From NCBI GenBank assembly GCA_937928555.1, contig CALFWR010000039.1, forward strand, positions 1-49,322: a DNA stretch of 49,322 bases. Direction: 5' to 3'. Positions within the stretch are counted from its first letter, which is position 1, and the number at the start of each line of letters is the position of its first letter. Positions 2,954-49,311 of the stretch are shown here, in pieces. Position numbers and translations under genes: made by a program. The notes beneath the pieces are model-generated. The model had not been told where the DNA came from. It was given only the letters and a program-made list of their open reading frames with translations, and made no database searches. Source of the stretch: an uncultured Pirellulaceae bacterium. GTDB lineage: Bacteria; Planctomycetota; Planctomycetia; Pirellulales; Pirellulaceae.

Positions 2954-3140
2954 CCCGAATTATTCACGACGACGGGCGTTGATTCTACGTCTGGCCAACA
3001 AGAGCAAGGGAAAAGCTGAAATTCAACAAGAAATGTAAATCATGCAGTGGATGAAAACCACGGCGATCGTTTCATCGCATCAGAGACGCGGATCACTGTC
3101 TCAACTGATTCTGACGCCCACGACTCGTGAGTAATCCGGG
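2954..3140 (+). mobile_element. 187-bp MITE-like element, type I core
   Basis: Full-length copy in forward orientation. The left end has one change (CCCGAATTATT) and the right end reads GTAATCCGGG. The core contains the conserved segment GCGATCGTTTCATCGC, which can form a small hairpin. Flanking pentamers GTAAG and ATCAG match at three of five positions, so the target duplication is degraded. It has no open frame of its own. Confidence 0.85.
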
Positions 3141-3162
3141 ATCAGGCAAACGGATATTCGAT

Positions 3163-5628
3163 CTACTCCAGGTATTCTTCTATCGATGCTGCTGGCCAAT
3201 AAAACGATCTGTCATCGCTGGTCGATTCGTCTCCGCCGTTATCAATCCCGTCAAGTCCAGCGGAGTAAAGTTGGAAACGTTCGGCGGATTGCCTGTAGAT
3301 CAACGGTTCGCTAGAAAACGGGTCTAGGGTATCAATCCCCAACTGCTCCAGAGATTCGGGAAACGATGCATGTTCCTGACGGTGCAGCAGCAATTCCAGG
3401 GCAATCTGACGAAGCTTGGCTAGCAGGGCAAAAATTACGTGCAATCGTAATTCGCTATGATCGAAACTGGAAAGAGTGTTTACGATTTGTTGTGATCGGT
3501 TGGCTGGAAAGTCAAACAATTCACTCGCGTGTTCATGAAATTGCCATTCCTCTTTCTGATTGGCCAAAGCAATTTTTAACAGCTCATCATGCCGTGACTC
3601 GCGCAACACTTTTTCGCGCAATTGGCGAAACCGATCGAATCGCTGCTTGCACGCTGTGATGTACAGATTCCAGTCAATCACTTGCGGGTGAACAGCGATC
3701 AGGCTGGCCATTGGTTTTTGTCCAAGCAGCAGATAATTGCTCTCCGAAACAGCACTCGACATGTTACCTCTGCTTTGCAGCATTTCCTGTGCAAACCGGG
3801 CGGCGTCATCGGTTGCCGAATCATGTTTCGACGGCTTTAAACGGCTGGCGATTTTTCTGATTTCACCAATCGTGGCTTTGTCGAGTTCATTGACCTCGGC
3901 AATGTGAATCAGAACGCCCATCGCTCGCGCCTGAATTCGCTGCCTTATGAAAACTTCCGAAAGTCGGCCGTGAGGAATCGTGTTCGCAAACCTAGAAATC
4001 GAACCGAGGTTATGCAGTGCTGCGGACAGATCATTTTTTGCGACCGCAAATCTTGTGTCTGCAAACAACATGTTGGCAGCAAAGTTCAAGATGTCGTAGG
4101 AAAAGAAATAACCGCCGGTTGAGACGGGGAAGAAAATTTCGTTGCGAGCCGCAACGATCTCCCGCAATTCACCGAACACGGCTTGCTTCTCACGGCAGAA
4201 TCTCGCCGCCAACGGCATTGAAAATTTATCCCATGGAGCGTCTATTGTTCGAGATTCAAACTCGGATACGTCGATCCGGTCCACATCGAAATCAATGTCT
4301 TCGAAATCGCTCTCGAAGATTATCGTTTTAGCGATGTCCGGATCGGTGCGATTGGCAAATAACCAGCCGGCAAACGTTTCATCGGGAAGCAAAGCGATTT
4401 GCTCTGGCGTGAAACCCATCAGGCGCCGGTTTTCCCCCGCTGCTTCAGGCGCATCGAAAAACTCCAACTTTGTCAGCGATGCAATTTGATACAGCAAGTC
4501 CTGTTCTTTTGGCACAAGATCCCGTCCAAGACAGTTAAGCCATTGATCCAGAGTTTGCGGACCGTGTTCTGCCTGAACCCGTTTGATGGCCTCAGAGCCA
4601 TAGGCATTTTCGAGCTCCTTCATGATCACCGGCGAGTCATCAAAGTGAGCCAGCGATCGCTCCGGGGCGCGCGTCACAAAGTTGCTGACAAACCAAAATG
4701 CGAGAAACCCCCACAATCCAATCGACACGATCGAAAACGAACCCAGCGCAATTCGCCGCACACTTCCAAAAGCAACTGAGGTTTGACACTCAGCGCGTTT
4801 CCCAAAACAGGTTCTCACCGCTCCGATCCATGCCAGGTACAGCATCGCCGCCATCGAGAAAGCAGCGATTTTCGTAAAGTAACCATCACGCGCATCGTAT
4901 TCGCTCCGCTCCAGCCCGACGAAGCAAAAGACAATCCAAGCGACGGCAAACATAATCACCCATACTCCTGCGGCAACAAGGACAAAGTACCGTGTTCGGA
5001 TCAGCCACCGTGTCAGCGGCAGGGCGATCAACGGCAGGACGATCAAACAGACCCCCAATTCTGCTGGTGGATCCATAATCGCATTCCAGTTTGGTGGAAA
5101 CGGGAGCGATTGTGATTGCGTGATTACCGCGACAAACATTCCAGCGAGCGTCAACCAGGCCAGGATCGAGCCGATGGAAAACTGCGAACGGCCTTCGGAC
5201 GTACCCGGAAAAACTGTTGGCTCCGTCCGCCGAATTCGCCACCAAACGAAAAGGCCTACGAGAAAACTTGCAATCAGCCATGCAAACAAAAAAGTAATTT
5301 TCCGGTCAGTTGCGTCCAGATTGGGACGAAACCAGCACCACTGCGCCAGAGCAAATAAAATCAGGACGATCGCCGCCAGGAAAGCCGTCAAACGATTGAC
5401 ACGCACTTTGCCCAGGACGATCCGGTCGGCAAAAGTTACCGCACACGCGAGGAAGTACGCCCCAACAACGAGCACGACCTGGACAAGAAGCTCTGTCAAC
5501 GCGACTTGCGTTGGCTTTCCAAAAGGCTCCGCCAATTCGGGACAAAGCCAGTACAGAATTGCTAAAGGCCCAGCGACACAACAAATCACCAATGCCACAG
5601 AAAGAGAATGTTTCCTGACTCGTTGCAT
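3163..5628 (-). CDS. Polytopic membrane protein with large C-terminal domain, function unknown
   Basis: An 821-residue protein. The N-terminal part (about residues 1-345) has roughly nine hydrophobic segments, including YFVLVAAGVWVIMFAVAWIV. A long, mostly hydrophilic helical domain follows to the end. The C-terminus carries a DPFSSEPLIYR...LYSAGLDGIDNGG stretch, a pattern I associate with many planctomycete secreted or membrane proteins and with pseudopilin C-termini. The start at 5628 avoids overlap with the upstream gene, which ends 31 bases away; a further in-frame ATG at 5721 would overlap it by about 60 bases. It probably forms a unit with the upstream gene. Function is not inferable. 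Confidence 0.8.
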   Translation of the reverse strand: MQRVRKHSLSVALVICCVAGPLAILYWLCPELAEPFGKPTQVALTELLVQVVLVVGAYFLACAVTFADRIVLGKVRVNRLTAFLAAIVLILFALAQWCWFRPNLDATDRKITFLFAWLIASFLVGLFVWWRIRRTEPTVFPGTSEGRSQFSIGSILAWLTLAGMFVAVITQSQSLPFPPNWNAIMDPPAELGVCLIVLPLIALPLTRWLIRTRYFVLVAAGVWVIMFAVAWIVFCFVGLERSEYDARDGYFTKIAAFSMAAMLYLAWIGAVRTCFGKRAECQTSVAFGSVRRIALGSFSIVSIGLWGFLAFWFVSNFVTRAPERSLAHFDDSPVIMKELENAYGSEAIKRVQAEHGPQTLDQWLNCLGRDLVPKEQDLLYQIASLTKLEFFDAPEAAGENRRLMGFTPEQIALLPDETFAGWLFANRTDPDIAKTIIFESDFEDIDFDVDRIDVSEFESRTIDAPWDKFSMPLAARFCREKQAVFGELREIVAARNEIFFPVSTGGYFFSYDILNFAANMLFADTRFAVAKNDLSAALHNLGSISRFANTIPHGRLSEVFIRQRIQARAMGVLIHIAEVNELDKATIGEIRKIASRLKPSKHDSATDDAARFAQEMLQSRGNMSSAVSESNYLLLGQKPMASLIAVHPQVIDWNLYITACKQRFDRFRQLREKVLRESRHDELLKIALANQKEEWQFHEHASELFDFPANRSQQIVNTLSSFDHSELRLHVIFALLAKLRQIALELLLHRQEHASFPESLEQLGIDTLDPFSSEPLIYRQSAERFQLYSAGLDGIDNGGDESTSDDRSFYWPAASIEEYLE

Positions 5629-5659
5629 ATTTTGCCCAGCAGAGATCTGATCCACTGAA

Positions 5660-6268
5660 TCAGATGCGGTCACGAGATTGCGCCAGCAGCTCCAACTGAC
5701 GTGGCGACGGCGCGTGGCCAAGCTTCATCGTCATGCGAAAGTCATCGGCCAGAAAACGCCTAGGCAAGGGGAATCCGTTTCGCTTGAGAGTGTACTCAAT
5801 TCGCTGCACTTTCTGACTCCAGAACATTCCCGCCAGATCGCAGATCAGCGGCCTTAAGCGACCGTTGTCCGATTTAAGTTCGACCGAATCCCCGATTTCG
5901 AAACCATCGGTGGAAATCTCGCGCCACAAAATCGGCAGCCCGCGAAATTGCTTTTGCCCGTAAGTGAACTCGCAGTAGCCAATGTTGCCCAGCACCGAAT
6001 CGTCGCAGTCGATCTTTCGAAAAATGCGTTTTGATGGCAGCAGCGAGAGGGCGACCTTGAGATCTTGCGGGTGGATCCAGTCGGTTCCTTCTTCGGGCCA
6101 CAGGCAGATGCCATGTTGCGGCAAGTGAGAAATGGATTTCTGTCCAAAACCGACTTGCCTGCTGACCCACTGCGACGGCTGGATATCGCCGGGCGAATCC
6201 CAGTCCAGGCCGTCGATGTGCAACGGCGGATTGGCAGCGACGTCTTCCACAAAATCATTGTCGATCAT
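5660..6268 (-). CDS. Hypothetical protein, 202 residues
   Basis: A soluble-looking protein with many Trp, Asp and Gly residues and no signal peptide or membrane segment. I do not recognise the family. A good ribosome-binding site (GAGGTG, 4 bases before the ATG) supports the start. The gene lies immediately upstream of the polytopic membrane protein on the same strand, so the two may be co-expressed. It diverges from the disrupted small gene that begins at 6341. Confidence 0.75.
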   Translation of the reverse strand: MIDNDFVEDVAANPPLHIDGLDWDSPGDIQPSQWVSRQVGFGQKSISHLPQHGICLWPEEGTDWIHPQDLKVALSLLPSKRIFRKIDCDDSVLGNIGYCEFTYGQKQFRGLPILWREISTDGFEIGDSVELKSDNGRLRPLICDLAGMFWSQKVQRIEYTLKRNGFPLPRRFLADDFRMTMKLGHAPSPRQLELLAQSRDRI

Positions 6269-6352
6269 GGTTCACCTCGTTCGAGAGCTTCTATTGTACG
6301 CGAAATCAGCTGCAGATCCAAAAAACGCCTGACGAATCAAATGGCAACGAAA

Positions 6353-6378
6353 AAAGCCGAAGCAAATGCTTCGGCTTT
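6353..6378. terminator. Perfect 11-bp hairpin, terminator-like on the minus strand
   Basis: AAAGCCGAAGC, a four-base loop (AAAT) and GCTTCGGCTTT form a perfect stem. On the minus strand it is followed by a run of T. No minus-strand gene lies just upstream, and the hairpin sits inside the presumed coding start of the disrupted gene at 6341. Its role is therefore unclear; it may be a leftover terminator or a coincidence of Ala/Glu codons. Confidence 0.4.
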
Positions 6379-6445
6379 GTTTGAAAGTTTAGGTTTTGCT
6401 TCTGTGCTGGTGGTCGTTCTATGCTGCCAGCGAGACCTGTTTTTG

Positions 6446-6632
6446 CCCGGATTATTCACGAGGCGTGGGCGTCAGAATCAGTTCCGACAGTGATCCGCGT
6501 CTCTGATGCAATGAAACGATCGCTGTGGTTTTCATCTATCGGATGATTCGCGATTCTTGTTGAAATTCAGCTTTTCCCTTGCTCCCGTTGGCCAGACGTA
6601 GAATTAACGCCCGTCGTCGTAAATAATCCGGG
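6446..6632 (-). mobile_element. 187-bp MITE-like element, type I core, inverted
   Basis: Full-length copy in reverse orientation: it opens with CCCGGATTATTCACGAGG and closes with CGTCGTAAATAATCCGGG. The core is closely similar to the copies at 7375, 17537 and 32642. Flanks TTTTG and TTGGT do not form a clean duplication. It lies within what appears to be a small membrane-protein reading frame (6341-6829). Confidence 0.88.
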
Positions 6633-6888
6633 TTGGTGGAGTCTCCGAGTCAGCAGGTAATGATCCTGATGACATCAACTCATGGAACTTCGACAGGCAA
6701 AGGTATTATGGACGGGTTGAAGCTAATCAAGAGCACCGGAAAACAATTCACGCTACCTTGATACTTGCTCCGATCGTGTTTGTCATTTTTGCATTGCTTG
6801 ATCGTTCGATCCATCGGTCGCCCAGGTAGATCGCGATTTCGCAATTCGCAATTCGCAATTTCGCAACTCATTATCTGACTGAACTGAC

Positions 6889-7440
6889 ATGTTTTGGCTA
6901 TCATCCATTTCTTCTGTCGCAATTGCCGGGTTCGTCCTTCGATTGCTGCACGTTTCTGAGTTGGCTAAATCAACGTTTTACATTTTCCTTTCGATAACGC
7001 TGCTGCTTTTCAATCTTGCCATCGCAACAGTTCTGGCCTGTTTTTGGAACGACGGGCAACCTTGGACAAAACCAAAAATGCTTCTTGGGTTGGTTGCAGT
7101 TACTTTGGGTTTGGCGTTGCTTGTTCGCCTGCTTTGCCCAGTCAAGCTGCGAAATCTGACGAATCACAAAGCCATACTCAAAACTTATTCGGTAATTCTG
7201 TTTTCTTGCGGATTGATAGCGGGGCTGATATTTGGATCGCCGGTATTCACTGGATTTTACACATTTCAGTCAGATCGATGGGCTGACATCGGGGCTGCAG
7301 TTGCGATTGTTGAGATTACGTCATTGTATACGCTTGTCCTCGCACTGGTGCTTTCAATTGGGGCATCTGTGGACCCCGGATTATTCGCGACGACGGGCGT
7401 TGATTCTATGTCTGGCCAACAGGAGCAGGGGAAAAGCTGA
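6889..7440 (+). CDS. Small polytopic membrane protein with element-derived C-terminus
   Basis: A 183-residue hydrophobic protein with about five membrane segments (for example STFYIFLSITLLLFNLAIAT and VILFSCGLIAGLIFG). Family not recognised. The last 21 codons (from 7375) are read from the left end of a 187-bp mobile element and give PGLFATTGVDS and then a stop. Removing the element and one copy of the 5-bp target duplication joins codon 162 to EQKTKPDASE and a TGA at 7597-7599. That is a more natural hydrophilic tail, so the present end is probably acquired. No convincing ribosome-binding site is visible before the ATG. Confidence 0.65.
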   Translation: MFWLSSISSVAIAGFVLRLLHVSELAKSTFYIFLSITLLLFNLAIATVLACFWNDGQPWTKPKMLLGLVAVTLGLALLVRLLCPVKLRNLTNHKAILKTYSVILFSCGLIAGLIFGSPVFTGFYTFQSDRWADIGAAVAIVEITSLYTLVLALVLSIGASVDPGLFATTGVDSMSGQQEQGKS

Positions 7441-7561
7441 ATTTCAACAAGAAATGCGAATCATCCGGTAGATGAAAACCACAGCGATCGTTTCATCGCA
7501 TCAATGTCGTAGATCACTGTCTCAACTGATTCTGACGCCCACGTCTCGTGAATAATCCGGG
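7375..7561 (+). mobile_element. 187-bp MITE-like element inserted in a 3' coding end
   Basis: Full-length forward copy with both conserved ends. The flanking pentamers TGGAC (7370-7374) and TTGAC (7562-7566) match at four of five positions, consistent with an aged 5-bp target duplication. The insertion falls on a codon boundary of the membrane-protein gene starting at 6889 and supplies its current last 21 codons and stop. Confidence 0.9.
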
Positions 7562-7732
7562 TTGACGAACAGAAAACCAAACCGGACGCGAGCGAATGAC
7601 AATGGGTTGAATGCGGGACCCCGGTTGTGATGTCGTTGATGGTTTGATGCGACTGGCGAAAACCGATAGTACGAGTTTGGGGCCAGGTCACGCAACAATA
7701 GATCTGCATCCCGAGACGGCATTTGCAATTGG

Positions 7733-8170
7733 CTACCAGAAGTTCTGCCACGAGCAGGGCGGTTGCTGAGGCAGTGTTGCGGGCGAATCGGACATTCGTG
7801 ACTCAAGTATTTTTTGTTCGTCAAGGATCGAGTCAAGCAAGTTTTTGTACTCGGGACGTTGGAGAAGATCGGGATTTTGTTTCGCTTTGGACGCGAAATG
7901 CGACCTGACCGCAGAAAGGCTGCGATGAGCGAGGCTGACCAGTTTGTCGATTTCGTCCAGAGCCACTTCTTCGTCCTCGCTTAAAGTGGACCAAAGCCCG
8001 GGTCGACCGAACATGATTACCATCGAAGCGGCAGCACGGATCTGGTGTGGATACTTGTCGATTGCCAGTCGGAGTGTGCCTTCCACGAGTTGGCAGGTTT
8101 TTCGCCATGCATCGGAGTTGTGGATCCAGGCCGCCGCCTGCTCGTTTTCCCATGGCAAGCCCGCATTCAT
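7733..8170 (-). CDS. Hypothetical protein, last gene of the cytochrome unit
   Basis: A 145-residue helical, Ala/Leu/Glu-rich protein without signal peptide or cysteine motif. Start chosen at 8170, where ATGA overlaps the stop codon of the preceding gene and a purine-rich GGGGGAAG lies upstream; an ATG 18 bases earlier is less likely. Both this and the preceding gene end in a short Trp-Gln/Gly-Lys/Asn-Phe-Trp-like tail (WQNFW and WGKFWS), hinting that the two are distantly related. Function unknown. The tight coupling suggests it works with the cytochrome-like protein upstream. Confidence 0.65.
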   Translation of the reverse strand: MNAGLPWENEQAAAWIHNSDAWRKTCQLVEGTLRLAIDKYPHQIRAAASMVIMFGRPGLWSTLSEDEEVALDEIDKLVSLAHRSLSAVRSHFASKAKQNPDLLQRPEYKNLLDSILDEQKILESRMSDSPATLPQQPPCSWQNFW

Positions 8171-8601
8171 GACCAGAACTTCCCCCATGCTGGTGGAGCC
8201 AGCTTGTTTTTGAGATTGGACATGCCCAGTCGGCGACGGAGGTGCTCAAGTTCGAGTTGGATTTCCTGTTTTTGCATTCGGTTGGCGCGGTGATCCTGCA
8301 TCGTCATCGGTTTCCCGGAAGTATCAGTGGATTTGTTACCAAGTTCTGCGGTCCGGCGAGCGACTGTGCGAAGAACACTTTTTTGTTGTTCGGGCCAAAC
8401 CCCGTCGCGACCCAGTAGCAGGCTAAAGGCCAACATAAGCCGCGTGATTTCTTCGCTACGTGCCAATTCGGGGCGATCGACGGCGTCTTCGATCATCAAC
8501 GGTAGAGCGGTCTTGTCCATCAACTCATGGAACCATTGTTGTGCTTTGGGGTGCGCCCAGGGAGACCACGTTTTTTCGTTCGTGGATTTTTCCCTGTTCA
8601 T
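8167..8601 (-). CDS. Hypothetical protein, middle gene of the cytochrome unit
   Basis: A 144-residue predicted soluble, mainly helical protein that I do not recognise. It lacks cysteines and membrane segments. It begins 3 bases after the stop of the class II cytochrome-like gene and overlaps the next gene by four bases (ATGA), so the three are almost certainly one transcript. A heptad-like stretch (QKQEIQLELEHLRRRLG) near the C-terminus could form a short coiled coil. Confidence 0.65.
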   Translation of the reverse strand: MNREKSTNEKTWSPWAHPKAQQWFHELMDKTALPLMIEDAVDRPELARSEEITRLMLAFSLLLGRDGVWPEQQKSVLRTVARRTAELGNKSTDTSGKPMTMQDHRANRMQKQEIQLELEHLRRRLGMSNLKNKLAPPAWGKFWS

Positions 8602-8604
8602 TAC

Positions 8605-9750
8605 CTACCGCCATTGCTCATGACAATTATCGCAAGACTGTGTGATTTGATTGGCGAACCGGCTGGCCGAATCAAAGTCATCATTTTGGACCGCTGTGAC
8701 GGTATTCAGGGCGGCCTCTTTCATTGCTTTGGAGAACTCGAGGTAGCCGTCATCGTCGGCGTCGTCCATTCCTTCGCGCGAGATAGCTTCGGCGATGGCA
8801 GCGATCCACTGGGCTTCGCGGGCGATGTCATTTCGTTTTTTGGTAAACGTTTTTTTGTCAGCGGTCCACTCTTTGAGATCATCGTCCGCGTTCTCTAGGC
8901 GAATCATGGTTTCGGTACGACCGATGACATCTGCCCACTCCAACGCGTCGTCCGGTTTTTCACTTTCCGGAAACGAACCGCCGCGAACGAGGTCTTCGAG
9001 GTCAAACTTTCTGGATTTGCAGTAGTTGAACGCCTGATCGGAATTTGATCGCGAGTTAACCATCGCTTGTTGAAGAGCCGCCTGGGCGGCGGCGGAGCTG
9101 TCTTTCCAGCGGACCTCATCGTCGTATTCGCGGATCACGGCAAAGGAAAGCGAAAGCATCGCCATCGCCTGATGGACATCGCCAGAGTTGGTTTTGAATC
9201 GAACCGGCGTGGTGACGGATTTCGCCAAATCCTGACTGAGTGATTTGATTTCGTCCTCAAGTGCATCGCGGCCGATTAGCGAGGACCAGCGAAAGCCACT
9301 GTCGACGCCGCCGGCTTGCGATGTGCTGCCCTTGCTGGCGGCGACGGTTGGCGATTGTTGTTGGGCCGTCGTCGGGCGGGCGCCGACAAGCCCTTGCCTG
9401 GCGACGTCGTCAAACCAAACATCGCTGGGTTGGTTGTCGAATTTGGGACGGGCCACCCGTTTGACTTTGCGAATACGCTTGAGCGATTTGGCGGCTAGGG
9501 CTTTTTCGGTGGCCGCTGGTTTGACGTCGACCGTGGGTTTGACATCGGTCGTGGGCTTGGCGTTGGTCGCGGGCTTGATATCGGTCGCGGGCTTGGCGTT
9601 GGTCGACGGCGTTTTTTCTTGGCTGAAACAGTGGCTTGCGAAAACGCCCAAAACCAATGCGCCCAAAACCAATGCAATCGAAACCAACACGATGTGAGGC
9701 CATGGGGGCCAAGGCAGGATGCGGAACCGGATTTGGGGGGTGTCGATCAT
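8605..9750 (-). CDS. Membrane-anchored protein with C-terminal CxxCH (class II cytochrome c-like)
   Basis: A 381-residue protein. One membrane segment near the N-terminus (HIVLVSIALVLGALVLGVFA) is followed by a Pro/Lys/Thr/Asp repeat linker (units such as NAKPTTDVKPT). A helical domain then ends in SCDNCHEQWR. A haem-binding CxxCH at the very C-terminus of a four-helix domain is the hallmark of cytochrome c'/c556 (class II). The linker would place the haem domain in the periplasm. Start taken at ATG 9750; an ATG 42 bases upstream would add a non-membrane leader. It heads a three-gene unit. A role in electron transfer or gas sensing is only inferred from the fold. Confidence 0.75.
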   Translation of the reverse strand: MIDTPQIRFRILPWPPWPHIVLVSIALVLGALVLGVFASHCFSQEKTPSTNAKPATDIKPATNAKPTTDVKPTVDVKPAATEKALAAKSLKRIRKVKRVARPKFDNQPSDVWFDDVARQGLVGARPTTAQQQSPTVAASKGSTSQAGGVDSGFRWSSLIGRDALEDEIKSLSQDLAKSVTTPVRFKTNSGDVHQAMAMLSLSFAVIREYDDEVRWKDSSAAAQAALQQAMVNSRSNSDQAFNYCKSRKFDLEDLVRGGSFPESEKPDDALEWADVIGRTETMIRLENADDDLKEWTADKKTFTKKRNDIAREAQWIAAIAEAISREGMDDADDDGYLEFSKAMKEAALNTVTAVQNDDFDSASRFANQITQSCDNCHEQWR

Positions 9751-9871
9751 GCTTTCATCATAGCCCGAAAACAGCTCATACTCAAACAGCACGATGATGC
9801 GAGCCTTCGCGACAAAAGGGATTCAATTTGTTACCATGTGAACGTACGCAAATTTCTTCGGAATCGATTCA

Positions 9872-10591
9872 TTGAGCACGGAAACAAAAAAGGTCGACTA
9901 CAAGCTTCTGGGACGAGTCCACAGCTGTTTGCGGCAACTTACGGATATCGCGGATCGGATGCGACGGGGCCCCATTCGGGTTAAGGTCGCCAAAAGCAAC
10001 GAGTTGGCATTTGGGACCGCTCTTGAGGAAAAGAAAGAAGAAGTACTCAAGGCCAAAAAGGAGTCCAAAGCCAAACAGATGCAGTTGGATGAACGCGAGG
10101 CCAAACTGGTCGACTTGCAGAATAAACTCAACGCCGCTGAGTCCAACAAGGAGTTTCAGCTGATCAAGGATCGCATCGCCGCTGACGAGCAAGCCAACAG
10201 TGTGCAGTCTGACGAGATTCTTGAGGGGCTTGAAAAACTTGACGTGCTCGAATCTGAACTCGCTGCCGCGAAGGAGAATCTGCAAAAATCCCAGGCTGAA
10301 ACCAAAGCGGTTGAAGAAAAAGTTCAAACCGAACTGGCAGACCTTAAAAACTTGCAGGCTCAGGTTCAGGAGCAGTTGACCGAAGCCGAAAAGAAGCTGC
10401 ATGGGGACCTTGCCGGACCGTACCGTCACAGCGTCAAAACCAAAGGCGAAGACACGCTTGCTTCGACTGATGGTTCGACATGCGGCAACTGCCATCAAAC
10501 GATCCGACCGCAAAAGGCCAGTGAGTTGCGACAGTTCAAGCCTGTGGTGTGCGAAGGTTGCGGTGCGATTCTTTATCGGAATCAGGATTGA
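9872..10591 (+). CDS. C4 zinc-ribbon protein with long coiled coil
   Basis: A 239-residue protein with a central coiled coil (about residues 50-175, rich in Lys/Glu/Ala/Gln) and a C-terminal zinc ribbon with two CxxC pairs (CGNCHQTIRP and, about 30 residues later, CEGCG). This matches the architecture of the zf-RING_7/CT398-type family, whose members are implicated in secretion or nucleic-acid handling. The start is TTG at 9872, chosen because no ATG or GTG covers the conserved N-terminus. Its TGA overlaps the selB start (TGATG), so the pair are translationally coupled. A link to selenoprotein synthesis is suggested only by this coupling. Confidence 0.7.
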   Translation: MSTETKKVDYKLLGRVHSCLRQLTDIADRMRRGPIRVKVAKSNELAFGTALEEKKEEVLKAKKESKAKQMQLDEREAKLVDLQNKLNAAESNKEFQLIKDRIAADEQANSVQSDEILEGLEKLDVLESELAAAKENLQKSQAETKAVEEKVQTELADLKNLQAQVQEQLTEAEKKLHGDLAGPYRHSVKTKGEDTLASTDGSTCGNCHQTIRPQKASELRQFKPVVCEGCGAILYRNQD

Positions 10592-12531: not shown

Positions 12532-12533
12532 CA

Positions 12534-12550
12534 GGCACACACCGTGTGCC
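12534..12550. repeat. REP-like palindrome GGCACAC-N3-GTGTGCC
   Basis: A 7-bp perfect inverted repeat with a 3-base loop, preceded by AGTAGCA. It lies three bases after the selB stop. The same unit recurs at 23818-23900 and 24020-24036. It could stabilise the 3' end of selB mRNA, but no T-run follows. Confidence 0.75.
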
Positions 12551-12669
12551 GCCGAGCGAATTGACCTTCCGTCGTTGGTGCCCGTAAACGGTCCTCCTCG
12601 AAGCGTCGTTCACATTGGAGCACCTCCGGGCAAGCCGCCAAAATTCAACTTTTTGCTCTTGCATCCAAC

Positions 12670-12754: not shown

Positions 12755-12792
12755 CTCATTCCAACGGCACACTGAGCGTGCCTGCTGCTTTT

Positions 12793-14070: not shown

Positions 14071-14098
14071 GCGATATCGTTTTTCGTGTCTTTTTCAG

Positions 14099-14285
14099 CC
14101 CGGATTATTGACGAGGCGTGGGCGTGGCTTTTCGCTCAGTCAATGAACACCGTATCAGTCCGAAAAAAGTCCTGTTTTGGAACTCTATCAGCGAGGTGAA
14201 CCGAATTTCCGGAGGCAATCTAGCTTTCGGGTACGCATAGCGAGATTTAACCGCAATCAACCGCCGTCGTCGTGAATGATTCCGG
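14099..14285 (-). mobile_element. MITE-like element, second (type II) core, inverted
   Basis: The ends match the family (CCCGGATTATTGACGAGG and CGTCGTCGTGAATGATTCCGG), but the interior does not match the type I core. Its reverse complement aligns with the interior of the disrupted element at 32485-32863, for example GTTCACCTCG and AAAGCTRGATTG at equivalent positions. A perfect 5-bp target duplication TTCAG flanks it (14094-14098 and 14286-14290). No coding capacity is seen. The remaining gap to 14488 shows nothing I can support beyond a TTGACA-like hexamer near 14440. Confidence 0.85.
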
Positions 14286-16515: not shown

Positions 16516-16555
16516 CCCGGATTATTCACGAGGCGTGGGCGTCAGAATCAGTTGG
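16516..16555 (-). mobile_element. Solo end of the MITE-like element
   Basis: About 36 bases match the right end of the element (CCCGGATTATTCACGAGG and GGGCGTCAGAATCAGT) and then the sequence diverges. No partner end is found within 700 bases, so this is a truncated copy. Confidence 0.8.
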
Positions 16556-17252: not shown

Positions 17253-17446
17253 CCGGGGCTATTCACGATGACGGGCGTTGATTCTACGTCTGGCCATTGG
17301 CCAACATAGGCAAAGGAAAAGCTGAATTTCAACAAGAAATGTGAATCATCCTGTAAATGAAAACCACAGCGATCGTTTCATCGCATCAGAGTCGCGGATC
17401 ACTTTCGCAACTGATTCTGACGCCCACGCCTCGTGAATAATCCCGG
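17253..17446 (+). mobile_element. MITE-like element, type I core, 194 bp
   Basis: Forward copy with an altered left end (CCGGGGCTATTCACGATG) and a right end TCGTGAATAATCCCGG. It is 7 bases longer than the others because of a small local duplication (GGCCATTGGCCAAC). Flanks ATGAA (17248-17252) and ATAAA (17447-17451) match at four of five positions. Confidence 0.88.
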
Positions 17447-17536
17447 ATAAAACTTTGGATCCGATACTGTCGGTTTCGTGACGAACAAGGCGATATGGAA
17501 ATACGACCAGTGAAAATTCGAATCTGGCAATTGATC

Positions 17537-17723
17537 CCGGATTATTCGCGACGACGGGCGTTGATTCTACGTCTGGCCAACGGGAACAAGTGAAAAGCTG
17601 AATTTCAACAAGAATTGCGAATCATCTGATAGATGAAAAACCACAGCGATCGTTTCATCGCATCAGAGCCTCGGATCACGGTCGGAACTGATTCTGACGC
17701 CCACGCCTCGTGAATAATCCGGG
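17537..17723 (+). mobile_element. 187-bp MITE-like element with perfect TTGAT duplication
   Basis: Full-length forward copy, both ends canonical. Perfect 5-bp target duplication TTGAT at 17532-17536 and 17724-17728. It is 90 bases from the preceding copy and lies at the 5' end of the small membrane-protein gene starting at 17727. Confidence 0.92.
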
Positions 17724-32224: not shown

Positions 32225-32411
32225 CCCGGATTATTCACGACGACGGGCGTTGATTCTACGTCTGCCCACTGCAGCGAGGAAAAAGGCTGAATTTCAACAA
32301 GAAATGTAAATCATCCGGTAGATGAAAACCACAGCGATCGTTTCATCGCATCAGAGTCGCGGATCACTGTCTCAACTGATTCTGACGCCCACGCCTCGTG
32401 AATAATCCGGG
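32225..32411 (+). mobile_element. 187-bp MITE-like element in the dnaG leader
   Basis: Full-length type I copy, perfect ends, perfect 5-bp duplication TGAAT (32220-32224 and 32412-32416). It separates the dnaG ribosome-binding site from the upstream region that would hold the original promoter. Confidence 0.93.
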
Positions 32412-32484: not shown

Positions 32485-32863
32485 CCCGGATTATTCACGA
32501 CGACGGGCGTTGATTCGCGTTGAACCTCACTTATACAAAGGTCAAAGCTGGATTGTCGCCCAGAATTCCGTTCACCTCGTTGATGAAGTCTAGGATAGAG
32601 ACTCTTTTCCAACCCGTGCGATGATCATTGGCTAAACTGAACCCGGATTATTCACGAGGCGTGGGCGTCAGAATCAGTTCCGATAGTGATCCGCGGTTCT
32701 GATGCGATGAAACGATCGCTATGTTTTCATCTGTCAGATGATTCGCAATTCTTGTTGAAATTCAGCTTTTCCTTTGCTCCCGTTGGCCAGACGTAGAATC
32801 AACGCCCGTCGTCGTGAATAATCCGGGCTGAAAGCTACGCCCACGCCTCGTGAATAATCCGGG
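32485..32863 (+). mobile_element. Type II MITE-like element interrupted by another copy
   Basis: The left end is canonical (CCCGGATTATTCACGACG, 32485) and the right end CGCCTCGTGAATAATCCGGG is at 32844-32863. Outer flanks TTCGC and TTCAC match at four of five positions. Subtracting the nested copy (32642-32827) and its 5-bp duplication leaves 188 bases, the family length. The interior matches the copy at 14099-14285, not the type I core. Confidence 0.85.
32642..32827 (-). mobile_element. Nested 186-bp type I MITE-like element
   Basis: Inverted full copy with perfect ends, flanked by a perfect duplication CTGAA (32637-32641 and 32828-32832), inserted inside the element spanning 32485-32863. 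The perfect duplication indicates it arrived later than the outer copy. Confidence 0.92.
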
Positions 32864-36665: not shown

Positions 36666-36720
36666 CCCATCCGGGTTTGATGCGATGGGTGAACATCAGA
36701 GAGATCATTGCCATCGACAA

Positions 36721-36924: not shown

Positions 36925-37111
36925 CCCGGATTATTCACGAGGCGTGGGCGTCAGAATCAGTACTGACAGTGATCCGTGACTCTGATGCGATGAAACGATC
37001 GCTGTGGTTTTCATGTACCGGATGATTTACTTTTCTTGTTGAAATTCAGCTTTTCCCTTGCTTCTGTTGGCCAGACGTAGAATCAACGCCCGTCGTCGTG
37101 AATAATTAGGG
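36925..37111 (-). mobile_element. 187-bp MITE-like element with perfect TTGAT duplication
   Basis: Full-length inverted type I copy; its right-hand end reads AATAATTAGGG (two changes). Perfect TTGAT duplication at 36920-36924 and 37112-37116. It lies 83 bases upstream of the large membrane-protein gene. Confidence 0.92.
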
Positions 37112-43185: not shown

Positions 43186-43309
43186 CCGAAGGATGTGAAA
43201 ACCCTTCCCGGTCTAATACATACTTCGAAAGCCCTGTCGCCAAAACTCGCTTTTCAGGTATCTTCTGGGAGTCAATCATCCGCAAACGCCCGTTAGGGGG
43301 CAGTAATTC

Positions 43310-46225
43310 GTGACACAGCAAGCCAACAGCCACCCCATCGGCCCAGATTCTCCCCGCGTTAGAGCATTACGAGACAAGATCATTGCGGAATTGGATGACC
43401 GCATCGGCGATACACTTTCTCGCTTGCCCGAGGAGTACTTTCAGCAGATTCCTCCGGACGAGCACCTGCAGCACTTCAAGGCGCTGGTGGCGATCAAGGT
43501 TTGTGAAATTGATCAGGAGATCATGATCCGTCACAAAAATGGCAATCGCGTGACGGTGATCTCGCATCAGAACCACCCGGGGCTTTTGGCGAGGCTGATC
43601 CGTGGATTGCCGCGTGAAAAGCCGCTTGTCGGTGCGAAAATCTTTACCTCTCTGGACAAAGATTTCATTGTTGACGTGTTTGAGTTTCAGGACGCGTTTG
43701 AAAAGAAGCTTGCGGTCTCTGATTCGAAAGAACTCTGCGGGCTGGTCGCAAAAGTCCAGCAGCTTACCGGTGCCAGCGCCGAGGAAGTCGCGACCTTTGT
43801 TGAACGTTACGATTCGCGTAATGTCATTTTGAATTCTCCTGAAGAAGTCGCACACCAGTATGTCGCGCTGCGTGAGACGGCTCACGAAAACGACATCAAG
43901 GTTCTGTGTGAGAAGGCTTCCGATTCGACATGTCAGGTGACCGTTTCGGCGGCCAGCAGCACGACGCGGGATGTTTTCGAGCGGTCGGCTGAATTTTTCG
44001 GCAGGCAGGAAATCGATATTCATCGCGCGGTTTGTGAAAATGTGATCGTACGCGATACCATCGATGTTGCCTTGTTGACGTTCAATGTGGAAATGGGAGG
44101 CGGGTTCAATACCCAGGCTTTTGCCGGTTCGATGGAGCACTTTCTGTCGGTCGACGAAGAAGTCATCCTTGGGCTTGGCGACCTTGCCACCCGGCCCACG
44201 CCGACATGGATTTCGGAACTGGGATTTGCGGAACTTTTTTGCTGTTTGGGCAAACTGACGCAGCACCAGATTAACTTTTGCGAATCGGTCAACCTTTCGC
44301 ACGAGCGAGTGCTGCGGACCATGCGAAAGCACTTTGATTTGTCCGCCGAAGCGCTGCGGGGGCTCTATTCGCGATTCAACGCCGACATGTATCGCGGAGA
44401 TTCGACCGCCGGGATGCCGGATGTTCCTTTGCAGCAGATCACCGATCCGACGGAACGACGGACGATCAAGACGCTTTTTCGGCTTGCCGGTGAGATTCAG
44501 CGAGCCAACTTTCGCACCGCTCGGCGGCGGGGGATTGCGTTTCGCTTGCCCGGTGAGTCGTTTGAGAATTTGAGTCGCGGCGAAAGTCCGCATGCGGTTT
44601 TCTTTGTCTACGGTGCCGGATTTGAAGGCTTCCACGTTCGCTTTCGCGAGGTCGCTCGTGGTGGCATGCGACTGGTGCCGACTCGCAACGGTGAACACTT
44701 TGTGTTTGAGTCGTCGCGTACTTTTGATGAAGCCTGGCGACTGGCGACCGCGCAGCAACTCAAAAACAAGGACATCGCCGAAGGTGGGGCAAAGGCCGTC
44801 GTCGTCGTCAAGCCCGGTGTTTCGCCGGGAAGGGCAGGGCGGGACTTTGTCGAAGGCCTGCTGGATCTGATCACCGATGTGCGGGGCGCAAGTGCATTGG
44901 ACCAGGAAAATGAGGGAGAAGAGTTTCTGTATTTGGGGCCTGACGAGAACGTAACCAATGAATTGATCAACTGGATCGTGGACCGCAGTAGCGACCGTGG
45001 TTATCGATTCCCGGAAACGATTATGAGTAGCAAGCCTACGACGGGCATCAATCACAAAGAGTTCGGCGTCACCAGCGAAGGCGTTTTGGTGTTCCTCAAG
45101 CATGCCTTGTTGGAACACGGGATTGATCCGAAGAAGGAGCCTTTTTCGGTAAAGCTGACCGGCGGGCCTGACGGAGACGTCGGCGGCAACGCGATCAAGA
45201 TTCTTGCGAGGGACTATCGGGACACTTCAAGGATTGTCGGCATCGCTGACGGAACCGGTTCGGCAAGCGATCCGCAGGGTCTTGAAAAGGACGAACTGCT
45301 GCGGCTGTTTCGCGAGGGATTGGGGATTGCAGAATTTGATCCCAAAAAGTTGTCTGCTGACGGTGAAGTCACCGGCTTGCGAACCGAATCCGAGATTACT
45401 CGCCGAAACGAGTTGCACAACACGATCAAGTCCGATGTGTTTTTGCCTGCCGGAGGGCGGCCTTCGACGATCAACGAAAACAACTGGCAGCGGTTTCTGG
45501 ATGACCAGGGCGTGCCCAGTTCTCCGATCGTTGTCGAAGGCGCGAATCTTTTCATCACCGATCAGGCTCGCAAGGAACTGTCGGCAAAGGGCGTTTCGAT
45601 CATCAAGGATTCTTCGGCTAACAAGTGCGGCGTGATCTGCAGCAGCATGGAAATCATGGCCGGGATGTTGATGAGCGAAGAGCAGTTTGTGGCGTCGAAA
45701 GCCGATTACGTGGCTGATGTCTTGAAGGTCCTTGCCTCGCTGGCTGAAATCGAAGCCATCAGTCTGTTCAACGATGGCTTACGTCGTCCGGATCTGACGT
45801 TGCCGGAAATCAGCGTGCAGATCAGCAAACAGATCATTCGTGTCGGTGACGTGGTTGAAAAGACCTGCGATGACTGGTCGGCGGAAGATCAAGAGCTGGC
45901 GAACGAGTATGTCGGAACGTTTTTGCCGGCCACGCTGGAAAAAGTGCTTGGCGGGGGCGTGGTGGAGAAGATTCCCGAGAGCTACCGGCGGCAGTTGTTG
46001 TCGGCGTTGTTGGCCAGCCGAATTGTTTACCGCGAAGGTTGTTTTTCGATCCAGACAATGCGTGACGACAGTATCGCAGCGCTGGCGAGAAAGACACTTG
46101 CCTATGAAGCGAACGTCCGCGAGATGGTTTCGCAGGTTGAAGGATCGGATCTGGCGGGGAAATCTGGAATCGCGGACATCCTCAGGCACGCCGGAACCCG
46201 GGCTCAGCGGGATCTGAAGTGGTAA
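43310..46225 (+). CDS. gdhB: Large NAD-dependent glutamate dehydrogenase
   Basis: 971 residues. It interconverts glutamate and 2-oxoglutarate plus ammonium using NAD. An ACT-like N-terminal region (RVTVISHQNHPGLLARLIRG) is followed by the catalytic core of the large-subunit GDH family: GGMRLVPTRNGE, LKNKDIAEGGAKAVVVVKPG (the conserved Lys is in LKNKD) and GGPDGDVGGNAIKI (nucleotide-binding). Length is nearer the roughly 115-kDa class than the roughly 180-kDa class. The start is GTG 43310 with AGGGGG about 9 bases upstream. The gene symbol is tentative. Confidence 0.9.
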   Translation: MTQQANSHPIGPDSPRVRALRDKIIAELDDRIGDTLSRLPEEYFQQIPPDEHLQHFKALVAIKVCEIDQEIMIRHKNGNRVTVISHQNHPGLLARLIRGLPREKPLVGAKIFTSLDKDFIVDVFEFQDAFEKKLAVSDSKELCGLVAKVQQLTGASAEEVATFVERYDSRNVILNSPEEVAHQYVALRETAHENDIKVLCEKASDSTCQVTVSAASSTTRDVFERSAEFFGRQEIDIHRAVCENVIVRDTIDVALLTFNVEMGGGFNTQAFAGSMEHFLSVDEEVILGLGDLATRPTPTWISELGFAELFCCLGKLTQHQINFCESVNLSHERVLRTMRKHFDLSAEALRGLYSRFNADMYRGDSTAGMPDVPLQQITDPTERRTIKTLFRLAGEIQRANFRTARRRGIAFRLPGESFENLSRGESPHAVFFVYGAGFEGFHVRFREVARGGMRLVPTRNGEHFVFESSRTFDEAWRLATAQQLKNKDIAEGGAKAVVVVKPGVSPGRAGRDFVEGLLDLITDVRGASALDQENEGEEFLYLGPDENVTNELINWIVDRSSDRGYRFPETIMSSKPTTGINHKEFGVTSEGVLVFLKHALLEHGIDPKKEPFSVKLTGGPDGDVGGNAIKILARDYRDTSRIVGIADGTGSASDPQGLEKDELLRLFREGLGIAEFDPKKLSADGEVTGLRTESEITRRNELHNTIKSDVFLPAGGRPSTINENNWQRFLDDQGVPSSPIVVEGANLFITDQARKELSAKGVSIIKDSSANKCGVICSSMEIMAGMLMSEEQFVASKADYVADVLKVLASLAEIEAISLFNDGLRRPDLTLPEISVQISKQIIRVGDVVEKTCDDWSAEDQELANEYVGTFLPATLEKVLGGGVVEKIPESYRRQLLSALLASRIVYREGCFSIQTMRDDSIAALARKTLAYEANVREMVSQVEGSDLAGKSGIADILRHAGTRAQRDLKW

Positions 46226-46409
46226 ATGGCGTTGCGAGTTGCAGCTTGGGCAGCCTGAAGTGTGCAATTGGTAACCCGAAGCGTCAGCGAGGAAAGCCCG
46301 GCGAAGGCGGCGAAGGCTGTTCGGTCCTCGTTGATGCGTCAGGTTGCCCTTGACCTGAATCCCGGAAGCATCACTCTGATAGTTACAGTTTGCCCAGACT
46401 GCATCCGGG

Positions 46410-46453
46410 AAGGCGGTTGTCTTTGGAAGGCGGTTGTCTTTGGAAGGCGGTTT
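46410..46453 (+). repeat. Two and a half tandem 17-bp repeats
   Basis: AAGGCGGTTGTCTTTGG at 46410-46426 and 46427-46443, then a partial third. It lies in the gap after the glutamate dehydrogenase gene and has no coding meaning that I can see. Confidence 0.85.
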
Positions 46454-46599
46454 GGTGACTGGCGCTTCGGTCGCGGAGCACGGGCGTGGGCTTGAGCCTG
46501 AAATTCCTCAAAATAAGTTCCAACGGCACGTTCGCGGCATCAGCCATCCGGCTTTGCCTATTCCACCAGCTCTACCGCTTCAGGTGGCTTCTCGCGTTA

Positions 46600-46760
46600 A
46601 ACGATAGCGATTGTTGTAGTTCCTGCCACTGCGATGTCTGTCGCTAGCCCTACGATTGTAAAAAGGGCTTAAAGAATTGGCCTCGGAATAAACGAAACAT
46701 AGTGCAGGTAAGCGAAATACCTTTCGTGCCGTTTAACCGGCATGGCGCCTCTGGCACGGT
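46600..46760 (+). promoter_or_regulatory. Candidate structured RNA region upstream of the HTH-receiver gene
   Basis: No open frame of interest. Several stems in a row: TAGCGA (46605) with TCGCTA (46641), AGCCCT (46646) with AGGGCT (46664), CGAAA-TACC-TTTCG (46713-46726), GCCG (46728) with CGGC (46738). It could be a long 5' leader or an independent small RNA; I cannot assign a known family (it does not look like tmRNA, RNase P RNA, 6S or SRP RNA). Confidence 0.3.
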
Positions 46761-46968
46761 GTTTCACTTCCAGGGGGGAATTCGATAACGGGCCGTTGGT
46801 CTGTTGATGTCATGATTTGTGGGCGACCCAACCTACAAAGCGGGCTCGATTTCTCTCCGGACGATGTCTTCGTCGCCAATTGTTGATTTGGTCATGTCGA
46901 ATCTTCAACTGATACTGATGTCGTAACAGGATTCACGTACGGAAACGTTTGTCCTTTTAGCGATTGCA

Positions 46969-47008
46969 ATTTGTCCTGACCCAGACGGGACTACCCGTAG
47001 GGACAAAT
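46969..47008 (+). promoter_or_regulatory. Strong leader hairpin before the HTH-receiver gene
   Basis: ATTTGTCC (46969-46976) pairs with GGACAAAT (47001-47008), with an inner stem ACGGG-ACTA-CCCGT (46985-46998). A second TTTGTCC copy at 46949 could compete for the same 3' arm, suggesting two alternative folds. It lies 24 bases upstream of a 20-codon ORF. Confidence 0.45.
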
Positions 47009-47031
47009 AGTTACGTGAGCGAAAGTTTCTT

Positions 47032-47094
47032 ATGAAGCGTTTGGTTCGTGTAGCGAAAGACGATTTAAAAGTGTTTATGGAGAGCCTGCGATGA
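47032..47094 (+). CDS. Possible 20-codon leader ORF coupled to the regulator
   Basis: ATG 47032 opens a 20-codon frame beginning MKRLVRVAKD and ending with TGA 47092-47094, which overlaps the start codon of the regulator (ATGA). The peptide is short and basic. Its own ribosome-binding site is weak, so it may be a regulatory leader rather than a protein, or chance. Confidence 0.35.
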   Translation: MKRLVRVAKDDLKVFMESLR

Positions 47095-47663
47095 AGGTGT
47101 TCACAACTGGACAGGTCGCCAAGATCTGTAAAGTGGCCCCGCGCACGGTCAGTAAGTGGTTCGATTCCGGTCGCCTTAAAGGTTACCGAATCCCCGGCTC
47201 ACAGGACCGTCGTATTCCACGCGAATACCTGATCAAATTCCTCAAGGAGCATGGTATGCCCCTGGGGGATCTGGAAGATGAAGCGATGGCAAAAATTTTG
47301 ATTGTCGCTCAAGATCAGGTACTGATTGAGAATCTCAAACGGGAACTTCCACCCGAAAAATCTTTCAAGGTAGCTGTCGCTGCCAGCGGTTTTGAAGCTG
47401 GTATTCAAGCGGAAAGCTTCCACCCCGACTGCATCATCACTGACTTTTCCATTGGAAAAGTTGAAGCTATGCAGATCTGTCAGAACCTCAGGAAGAATCC
47501 AAACTTCTCTGAGACCATTCTGATCGCTCTGCTGCCCGATGACGGTCAACCTGTTTCGTTTGATCGAAGTGCGATTAACGAGACGTTCAAGAAGCCGTTC
47601 GATGCAAGCCTGCTTGCTGAACGACTTCGCACGCTGATCGGTTCGGTCAAGGAACTGGTGTAG
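47091..47663 (+). CDS. BldC/MerR-type HTH fused to a response-regulator receiver domain
   Basis: 190 residues. Residues 3-53 form a BldC/excisionase-type winged helix-turn-helix (TTGQVAKICKVAPRTVSKWF and then GRLKGYRIPG), a DNA-binding domain. Residues 67-188 form a receiver fold: ILIVAQDQVL (only one acidic residue where most receivers have two), phospho-acceptor Asp118 in PDCIITDFS, and Lys168 in FKKPF. The order HTH first then receiver is the reverse of most response regulators. ATG 47091 has GGAG about 9 bases upstream. A partner kinase is not in the window. It is preceded by a long leader and followed by a terminator. Confidence 0.85.
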   Translation: MKVFTTGQVAKICKVAPRTVSKWFDSGRLKGYRIPGSQDRRIPREYLIKFLKEHGMPLGDLEDEAMAKILIVAQDQVLIENLKRELPPEKSFKVAVAASGFEAGIQAESFHPDCIITDFSIGKVEAMQICQNLRKNPNFSETILIALLPDDGQPVSFDRSAINETFKKPFDASLLAERLRTLIGSVKELV

Positions 47664-47731
47664 CCCCACCATTGTTCGCCGCAAGAAAAATTGACTGAGC
47701 TCAGTACGCTACAACTCGCCGTCTTTCGCTC

Positions 47732-47770
47732 AAACCACCCGTCGACGACCCTCGACAGGTGGTTTTTTTT
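47732..47770 (+). terminator. Rho-independent terminator of the HTH-receiver gene
   Basis: AAACCACC and GGTGGTTT form an 8-bp stem with an inner GTCGA/TCGAC pair and are followed by eight T. It lies 69 bases after the stop. This would also protect the convergent minus-strand gene that ends at 47877 from read-through. Confidence 0.85.
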
Positions 47771-47876
47771 GTTGGCATACCGATCGCGAGTCTGGTCACG
47801 AATGCTCAGCGACCCGGCGGACTGAGACCCGTACGATCCCGTAAGCTGCTTGCGAAACCCGCCTGCTATCTGGCCG

Positions 47877-48242
47877 CTATCTGGCCGTAAACTGCTTGAT
47901 CCACTTTGAGATCGCCAGCAGGATACTGGTGACCACAACGATCGACGCCAGCAGTCTGAAAAAGTTGGGTCGGGCAGAAACGAAAGCGGCGACAATCAAT
48001 AACACGCCCAGCATCAGTAGTGGTAGGCGATCAAGGACCGGACGTAGTTGCGGCAGAGCCAGCCAGATCGCGCCCAGAACCAATCCCAGTCGCAAACTTA
48101 TCGCAAGCGAAGCCAGTTCGATGGACTGGGTGCTGATGAAAATCACAGTCGCCAGCAGCAGGCACCCAATCGCAAGAACTCCAATGATCGTGCGTTTGAG
48201 TTGAAACTCCCGAAGTTGATCGGTGCTTGTGTCAGACATCAA
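47877..48242 (-). CDS. Small membrane protein, hypothetical
   Basis: 121 residues with four hydrophobic segments (IIGVLAIGCLLLATVIFIS, LASLAISLRLGLVLGAIWLAL, RLPLLMLGVLLIVAAFVSA and FFRLLASIVVVTSILLAIS), each about 18-22 residues. No motif recognised. The start codons ATG-ATG at 48242/48239 overlap the stop of the upstream isomerase-like gene (ATGA), indicating translational coupling. Confidence 0.75.
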   Translation of the reverse strand: MMSDTSTDQLREFQLKRTIIGVLAIGCLLLATVIFISTQSIELASLAISLRLGLVLGAIWLALPQLRPVLDRLPLLMLGVLLIVAAFVSARPNFFRLLASIVVVTSILLAISKWIKQFTAR

Positions 48243-49087
48243 GTCGTCCGCATTTTGTCACGAATGTTTGTGATGACGCGGACCGCGTGGCCGATTTCGT
48301 CCTTTTGCCGTTGGGGTTGCTGAGGGATCTCGCGTTCGATCGTTAACGGACCTTCGTAGCCGATGGCCTTGAGCGTTTCCATGTACTGTTGGATGTTGAC
48401 GTCGCCGTCGCCAAGACGAACTTCCTGGCCCCACTCGACCCCGGGCTTGTCGCCCCATTTGGCGTCTTTGAAGTGAACGCTACGCACAAGCTGCCCCAGT
48501 TGATTGAGCGCCTCGATGGGCTCACCGGCACCGTAAAGAATCATGTTGGCGGGGTCAAAGTTTACAAACAGGTTATCGCGAGCAACATCGCTGATGAATT
48601 CGACGAGTGCTACGGCGGTTTCCTGTCCCGTTTCCAGATGCAGGCTCTGTCCGTTGCCTTGAGCGTACTGACAAAGGTCGCGGGTGACTTCCACGACGTC
48701 GCGATACGACTGGCTGTCGGAATCATGCGGGACGAACCCAAGGTGAAGTGCGATGACGGGGCAGCCAAGATGTTTTGCGAAATCCGAAATCTCTTTCATC
48801 TCGGCCAGACGATCCTGACGCGTCGCTTCGGGGACAAGTCCAACGGTTTTCACGACCGTTGGAATGTCGGCATAGCTTTCGCCTTCGAACCCGCCAAAGA
48901 CTGCCGTTGCGGTGATGTCAAATTCGTCCAGCCGTTTTTTGACCGCCGCAGCAGAATCGGCGGAACGATTGCCTGCGTGAGGCGCGTGGATTTGAATTGT
49001 CGGGATGCCAAGTTCCCGGGCGACGCCAAGATCGACGCCAAGCCCGGCATCGATACTGGTGAACACACCTACGGGCCAATTTTCCAT
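48239..49087 (-). CDS. Sugar phosphate isomerase/epimerase (xylose-isomerase-like TIM barrel)
   Basis: 282 residues. The AP-endonuclease-2/xylose-isomerase-like TIM-barrel family: metal-ligand positions are visible in LHLETGQE (Glu), NFDPANM (Asp), SVHFKDAKW (His and Asp) and PLTIEREI (Glu). Members isomerise or epimerise keto-sugars or inositol intermediates; the substrate is unknown here. ATG 49087 is preceded by GGAAAAAG. A mobile element begins 37 bases upstream of the start. It is coupled to the small membrane-protein gene downstream. Confidence 0.88.
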   Translation of the reverse strand: MENWPVGVFTSIDAGLGVDLGVARELGIPTIQIHAPHAGNRSADSAAAVKKRLDEFDITATAVFGGFEGESYADIPTVVKTVGLVPEATRQDRLAEMKEISDFAKHLGCPVIALHLGFVPHDSDSQSYRDVVEVTRDLCQYAQGNGQSLHLETGQETAVALVEFISDVARDNLFVNFDPANMILYGAGEPIEALNQLGQLVRSVHFKDAKWGDKPGVEWGQEVRLGDGDVNIQQYMETLKAIGYEGPLTIEREIPQQPQRQKDEIGHAVRVITNIRDKMRTT

Positions 49088-49124
49088 TCTTTTTCCAGAC
49101 TGAACTGAGGATGATTTTCCTTAT

Positions 49125-49311
49125 CCGGAATTATTCACGACGACGGGCGTTGATTCTAGGTTTGGCCAACAGGAGCAAGGAAAAAACTGAATTTCAACAA
49201 GAAATGTGAATCATTCGGTAGGTGAAAGCCACAGCGATCGTTTCATCGCATTAGAGTAACCGATCACTGTCGGAACTGATTCTGACGCCCACGCCTCGTG
49301 AATAATCCGGG
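49125..49311 (+). mobile_element. 187-bp MITE-like element upstream of the isomerase-like gene
   Basis: Full-length forward type I copy with a changed left end (CCGGAATTATTCACG) and perfect right end. Flanks CTTAT and ATTAG match at three of five positions. It covers the region where the promoter of the minus-strand isomerase-like gene would be expected. Confidence 0.88.

Follow-up and report, generated by a model that had tools for sequence, protein, structure and literature searches.

Which enzyme spread a short, gene-less repeat through the genome of an uncultured Pirellulaceae bacterium, and is that repeat mobile at all? The question arises from positions 1-49,322 (forward strand) of contig CALFWR010000039.1, referred to here as the window, in a draft assembly of 4.87 Mb (GCA_937928555.1; 168 contigs, 91% complete). 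The window holds 11 paired copies and two fragments of an element of ~187 bp, with 16-bp terminal inverted repeats, CCCGGATTATTCACGA, on both sides of the paired copies (Table 1); allowing up to 3 mismatches, the 16-base end matches 24 times in the window, against 0.37 expected. Miniature inverted-repeat transposable elements (MITEs) are short transposable elements without genes, moved by a transposase acting in trans. The repeats share the properties of this class: they are shorter than 500 bp, lack a transposase gene, end in inverted repeats, are flanked by a target duplication, and exist in many copies, with both occupied and empty sites. They very probably form a MITE swarm mobilized by the NTNAN group of the IS1380 family (5-bp duplications, DDE transposase). 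The original prediction from the sequence, a non-autonomous element dependent on a transposase that duplicates 5 bp of target, is borne out by the duplications, by two nested empty sites and by ends matching IS1380.

Target Site and Duplication

Flanks were compared in a 434-kb sample composed of the window, the whole of contig C2 (229 kb) and stretches of C4, C6, C10 and C14 (156 kb) picked around listed matches. The sample contains 60 pairs of ends, 59 with both flanks, and 39 of the 60 are exactly 187 bp long. An exact 5-bp duplication borders 29 of the 59 copies, compared with a mean of 1.6 and a maximum of 6 in 500 shuffles, and four of the five bases agree in a further 14. The predicted duplication length is thereby upheld, with other lengths near or below the shuffled level: exact 4-bp duplications occur in three copies (shuffled mean 0.9, maximum 5), 3-bp duplications in one (mean 0.2), and 2-bp and 6-11-bp duplications in none of the 59. 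Flanks bare of duplication across many copies, named in advance as grounds for abandoning the idea of mobility, were looked for, and duplications are present instead. The proposed target, TTSAN, proves too narrow: read on either strand, it fits 13 of the 29 exact duplications, whereas NTNAN fits 28, with T at position 2 in all 29 and A at position 4 in 28. NTNAN also fits 103 of 120 flanks, versus a background of 4.4%.

Insertion is visible directly where one copy has landed inside another. The items at 32485, 32642 and 32848 do not lie side by side: they form one 188-bp element, 32485-32863, into which an inner 186-bp element, 32642-32827, has inserted at CTGAA, to give a composite of 379 bp. 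The uninterrupted copy at C2:17510 displays the empty site of the inner element and also, by eye, that of a nested copy in contig C79 (CTGAT). A like composite lies at C33 between two copies of TTGAG, its inner element agreeing in both insertion site and orientation. Movement of the composite as a unit is the simplest explanation; less simply, the C33 composite may have arisen by a second insertion at the same site.

Two Groups of IS1380 Elements in Relatives

A search for longer elements with the same ends and a transposase gene, the check originally suggested, succeeds in relatives, where such elements belong to IS1380, and finds none in this genome. The IS1380 family is proposed as the source of the mover because the swarm ends and the 5-bp NTNAN target recur in IS1380 elements of relatives, which fall into two groups. 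The swarm resembles the YTAR group in its termini: exact CCCGGATTATTCACGA is found at one end of an insertion sequence present at three places in genome G381 (e.g., L163 and L164), the other end being CCCGGATTATTCACGG, and at both ends of the single insertion sequence in G278 (L206). Unlike the swarm, this group makes 4-bp YTAR duplications, TTAG or CTAG at all three places in G381 and CTAG at both ends in G278. The G381 gene, read in two of the three places, encodes an IS1380 transposase (NF033539, 265.8 bits over the 386-residue part scanned; cut-off 180).

The NTNAN group was found with a protein of genome G388, L207, which is itself assigned to IS1380 by NF033539 (285.8 bits) and has matches in 10 of 241 genomes at E ≤1e-60. 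Genes of the L207 type occupy 12 loci, eight of which give a pair of ends 1.73-1.85 kb apart. By eye, 15 of the 16 flanks of these pairs fit NTNAN, the misfit being a doubtful end in L268; exact 5-bp duplications are seen in two pairs (L266, TTCAA; L274, TTGAT) and exact 4-bp duplications in none. Single flanks at L272, L273 and L276 fit NTNAN as well. The group ends show 0-3 differences from the swarm end in the first 14 bases (some paired ends carry 3 mismatches in 14), followed by CA for GA, the swarm having CACGA and the group elements CACCA. Judged by eye, NTNAN also describes 7 of 9 flanks in genome G232, a count that omits an internal match and one with 4 mismatches; one locus there, L253, combines ACGA ends with a transposase in broken frames. 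The swarm and the NTNAN group (L207, L266, L274 and their relatives) thus have in common near-identical ends, CCCGGATTATTCACCA / CCCGCATTATTCACCA in the group, a 5-bp duplication and the NTNAN target; they differ in that the group elements are 1.73-1.85 kb long with a transposase gene, in some broken, whereas the swarm copies are ~187 bp without one.

In a tree of 19 proteins, the eight rows labelled NTNAN fall on one side of a branch with support 100/99, and four YTAR rows fall on the other among six unlabelled rows; one unlabelled row is a long branch. The tree is rooted at the midpoint and gives no relative age of the two groups. With 5-bp NTNAN duplications tied to one IS1380 group and 4-bp YTAR duplications to another, the basis of duplication length becomes testable within a single family.

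In the proposed mechanism, an NTNAN-group transposase would recognize the 16-bp inverted ends together with unequal inner stretches, GGCGTGGGCGT on one side and CGACGGGCGTTGATTC on the other, and would excise the element. In a cut-and-paste route it would then join the element to a target opened by a 5-bp staggered cut at NTNAN, in most cases in intergenic DNA, and the autonomous partner would later have been lost.

Copy Number and Distribution

Ends at ≤1 mismatch number 1,115 in the draft genome, compared with 0 for a reversed-pattern control. In the window and C2, 68 such ends go with 37 pairs no longer than 260 bp (composite not counted), a proportion that scales to ~607 paired copies genome-wide, or ~113 kb and ~2.3% of the genome; density should be taken from C2 and the genome count only, since the other sampled stretches were chosen around matches. 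Extended ends, at ≤3 mismatches, occur in the genome at 673 places (left-type 26-mer) and 545 places (right-type 32-mer).

The swarm is concentrated in this one genome. Exact ends are present in 18 of 396 genomes of the order, with 787 in the source genome and 19 in the next highest. At ≤1 mismatch, the 16-base end is absent from 25 of 27 congeners; G008 has one and G015 six. Presence at every locus in relatives, the second outcome that would have spoken for a conserved sequence, is not what is seen: none of the other 240 family genomes searched has extended ends (≤3 mismatches), save for four left-type ends in G015. In this congener, short relatives of 83-86 bp (L095, L096 and L100) combine similar ends with other cores, a sign that the ends may predate the swarm. 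Viral contigs contain no exact match to either extended end, and plasmids none to the type I consensus. Genes flanking the copies mostly show 62-75% DNA identity to their congener matches.

Cores, Divergence, and Age

Grouping of 53 pairs of 180-215 bp at >75% identity gives a dominant type I (42 copies), two further groups (five and three copies) and three singletons. The smaller groups are alike, the outer element of the composite being ~70-76% identical over its length to several of them, and depart from type I chiefly in the stretch between the ends. Equal length despite different cores turns what sets the length into a question. One speculative and rather unlikely answer is that a single transposase, since lost, moved at least two core types of 187-188 bp that share little beyond their ends, with length fixed by the machinery and not by descent, and that ~600 copies filled one species before the loss.

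Identity to the type I consensus ranges over 84.0-97.3% among the 42 copies (median 94.1%), and nearest neighbors are no closer to one another than to it (median 94.1%, maximum 97.3%). The burst looks old, because copies stand ~6% from the consensus without any near-identical pair among those sampled. By simple arithmetic, ~6% change per site predicts that both copies of a 5-bp duplication remain intact in ~54% of cases, near the 49% seen, as fits an old burst that has stopped. Conservation in type I is 0.96-0.98 in the end segments versus 0.93 in the core. The sample also has 22 solitary ends: 19 agree with an element consensus, as truncated or diverged copies, and three, all at 3 mismatches, do not.

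Weighing the Explanations

Several observations weigh against assigning the swarm to the NTNAN group. No partner has been located in the genome: a PF13701 search of the assembly leads to three places (L031, L032 and L033), none with swarm ends, and a search with the L207 protein gives no match at E ≤1e-60, an absence that is unproven in a 91%-complete draft of 168 contigs. The cores, compared for any sign that they derive from an IS1380 element by deletion, have no DNA match in the 21 insertion sequence loci fetched (the true partner is not among the 21), and only two very weak protein matches to transposases (E 0.07 and 0.09). The complete elements with the exact 16-mer, in G381 and G278, belong to the 4-bp YTAR group, and complete NTNAN-group elements have ACCA-type ends, e.g., CCCGGATTATTCACCA and CCCGCATTATTCACCA; ACGA ends are connected with NTNAN through G232, where a single locus shows the gene, its frames broken, and contig ends cut off the other copies. 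Six of the eight NTNAN-group end pairs, L207 itself among them, have no exact duplication, and a shorter element, L269, with ends ~1.15 kb apart, has by eye an exact 5-bp duplication, GGGAG, that misfits NTNAN. In the tree, L266 is the only NTNAN row with an exact duplication, the others being labelled from their flanks, and seven of the eight rows were obtained from or via the L207 query, making their clustering partly an effect of ascertainment. Finally, sampled copies with exact duplications are no nearer the consensus than the others (p = 0.61).

The exact 16-mer at one or both ends of complete YTAR elements would also be expected if that group had moved the swarm and the 5-bp duplication were a local variation. 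This is improbable: the duplications of the YTAR elements themselves are 4 bp, TTAG or CTAG, without exception, while the swarm has 3 of 59 copies at 4 bp, a number to be set beside its shuffled mean, versus 29 at 5 bp, and its target is NTNAN. With no partner found in the genome, the evidence on the enzyme is indirect, which gives some room to a family other than IS1380, e.g., IS4 or Tn3, with ends similar by chance; other families too make 5-bp duplications, and Tn3-derived elements make 5- or 6-bp ones (PMC4133298, in the part available). Such an origin is nevertheless distinctly improbable, given that IS1380 elements elsewhere in this bacterial family carry the 16-bp end, that the IS4 relative found here ends in GAATGGCACTGTC, like 13 relatives in another genome, and that Tn3-derived miniatures have 38-bp repeats (PMC4133298, same part).

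A conserved structural or regulatory repeat (a hairpin, a terminator or an element like the repetitive extragenic palindromes, REPs), kept for its function and not mobile, has two observations in its favor. The only copy folded does better than shuffled sequence, at z -2.48, with 3 of 200 shuffles equalling it, and the copies avoid long reading frames: after removal of the element by script, 11 of 56 sites lie within a frame of ≥300 codons, versus 1,080 of 1,500 random sites. With long frames as a proxy for genes, this shortage of sites indicates that the insertions are mainly intergenic. An immobile repeat is nevertheless scarcely credible in view of the duplications at the flanks, the empty sites, the composite seen at two places, the differing cores within common ends and the near-absence from congeners. 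A secondary role after insertion may exist. Mobilization by the NTNAN group of IS1380 is accordingly the preferred explanation.

The Missing Partner and Other Insertion Sequences

In line with the original claim, no transposase is found in the window: tblastn with 19 transposases finds no match there or in the rest of the 434-kb sample, and the frames of the three consensus sequences have no convincing transposase match. The autonomous partner may have been lost or left unassembled. Two of the three places with PF13701 matches, L031 and L033, were considered as partner and rejected. L031, a copy of an IS1380 element, has inverted repeats CCTAGTCCTTAA, which are not swarm ends. L033, of the IS4 family, drew attention through a CCCGGATTATTCATCA match beside it, but 13 relatives in the metagenome-assembled genome (MAG) ACE_PLA12 show that such elements end in GAATGGCACTGTC, and so does L033. 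The third place, L032, is a short PF13701 piece near an CCCGAATATTTCATC end. At L033 (1227-2416), the border reads GCCTGACC, and a swarm copy lies just upstream of the gene, with the contig ending within that copy.

The ACE_PLA12 relatives (L046-L058, 13 copies fetched) represent an IS4-family element with GAATGGCACTGTC ends. GGGTC(T/A)GACC stands directly at the left border in 7 of 13, by eye, with near variants in the rest; the element seems to target a short palindromic repeat. Another genome of the same genus, G009, has 22 PF13701 matches and many pieces of IS1380 genes; stops interrupt several of these pieces, and some lie beside CCCGGATATTTCAT ends. A related insertion sequence perhaps had a burst of its own there in the past.

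Comparison With Known Elements

Although elements of this kind are known, the swarm adds a large new example, with ~600 copies in one species. It offers a clear case of a non-autonomous burst in a single bacterial species, comparable in order of magnitude with the highest copy numbers covered in the available part of a review (PMC10969869). The same part reports 711 copies of the enterobacterial repetitive intergenic consensus (ERIC) in Photorhabdus luminescens; ERIC is likewise short and gene-less, with a copy number of the same order, but is reported from two bacterial families, whereas the swarm was found in one species of those searched, a comparison made by description. Within IS1380, IS1247 from Paracoccus has 16-bp repeats, 13 positions of which match, and a 5-bp duplication (PMC3281130, in part). 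The comparison with the swarm covers repeat and duplication length; IS1247 measures 1,672 bp, carries a gene and comes from another phylum (PMC3281130, same part). In literature on MITEs, IS1380 and insertion sequences of Planctomycetes, mostly open-access, none of the titles and abstract openings listed describes this element, and the accessible part of PMC3733652, which treats REPs in Planctomycetes, yielded no mention of IS1380.

Copies in the Window

The 13 items originally listed correspond to the 11 paired elements and two fragments of Table 1. Seven paired elements are 187 bp long; the others measure 186, 188, 194 and 379 bp (the composite). The five perfect duplications announced, TTGAT twice, TGAAT, CTGAA and TTCAG, are all present, as are the three four-of-five matches, at 7375, at 17253 and at the outer element at 32485; agreement is worse at 2954, 6446 and 49125. 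Coordinates stand except that the copy placed at 17537 starts at 17536.

Table 1. Swarm elements and fragments in the window, with strand and flanking bases.
Feature	Coordinates	Strand	Flanks and remarks
Fragment	1..23	(-)	GGCGTGG-type end of a type I copy, cut off by the window start
Type I, 187 bp	2954..3140	(-)	GTAAG/ATCAG, 2 mismatches
Type I, 187 bp	6446..6632	(+)	TTTTG/TTGGT, no visible duplication
Type I, 187 bp	7375..7561	(-)	TGGAC/TTGAC, 1 mismatch
Different core (type II of the original prediction), 187 bp	14099..14285	(+)	Exact duplication TTCAG
Fragment	16516..16554	(+)	First 39 bp of type I, 39/39 identical to consensus, then unrelated sequence
Type I, 194 bp	17253..17446	(-)	ATGAA/ATAAA, 1 mismatch
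Type I, 188 bp	17536..17723	(-)	Exact duplication TTGAT
Type I, 187 bp	32225..32411	(-)	Exact duplication TGAAT, the sole exact one of 29 outside NTNAN
Composite, outer 188-bp element of second core type	32485..32863	(-)	Interrupted at 32642; TTCGC/TTCAC, 1 mismatch
Type I nested in outer element, 186 bp	32642..32827	(+)	Exact duplication CTGAA; empty site in uninterrupted copies
Type I, 187 bp	36925..37111	(+)	Exact duplication TTGAT
Type I, 187 bp	49125..49311	(-)	CTTAT/ATTAG, 2 mismatches

Looser pairing of ends also gave pairs 852-1727 bp apart. Near element position 92, the type I core (e.g., in the copy at 36925-37111) contains an internal look-alike, CGGATGATTC, of its own end. An apparent 95-bp class, 10 pairs at 4 mismatches that are gone at 3, was set aside as likely a product of this look-alike.

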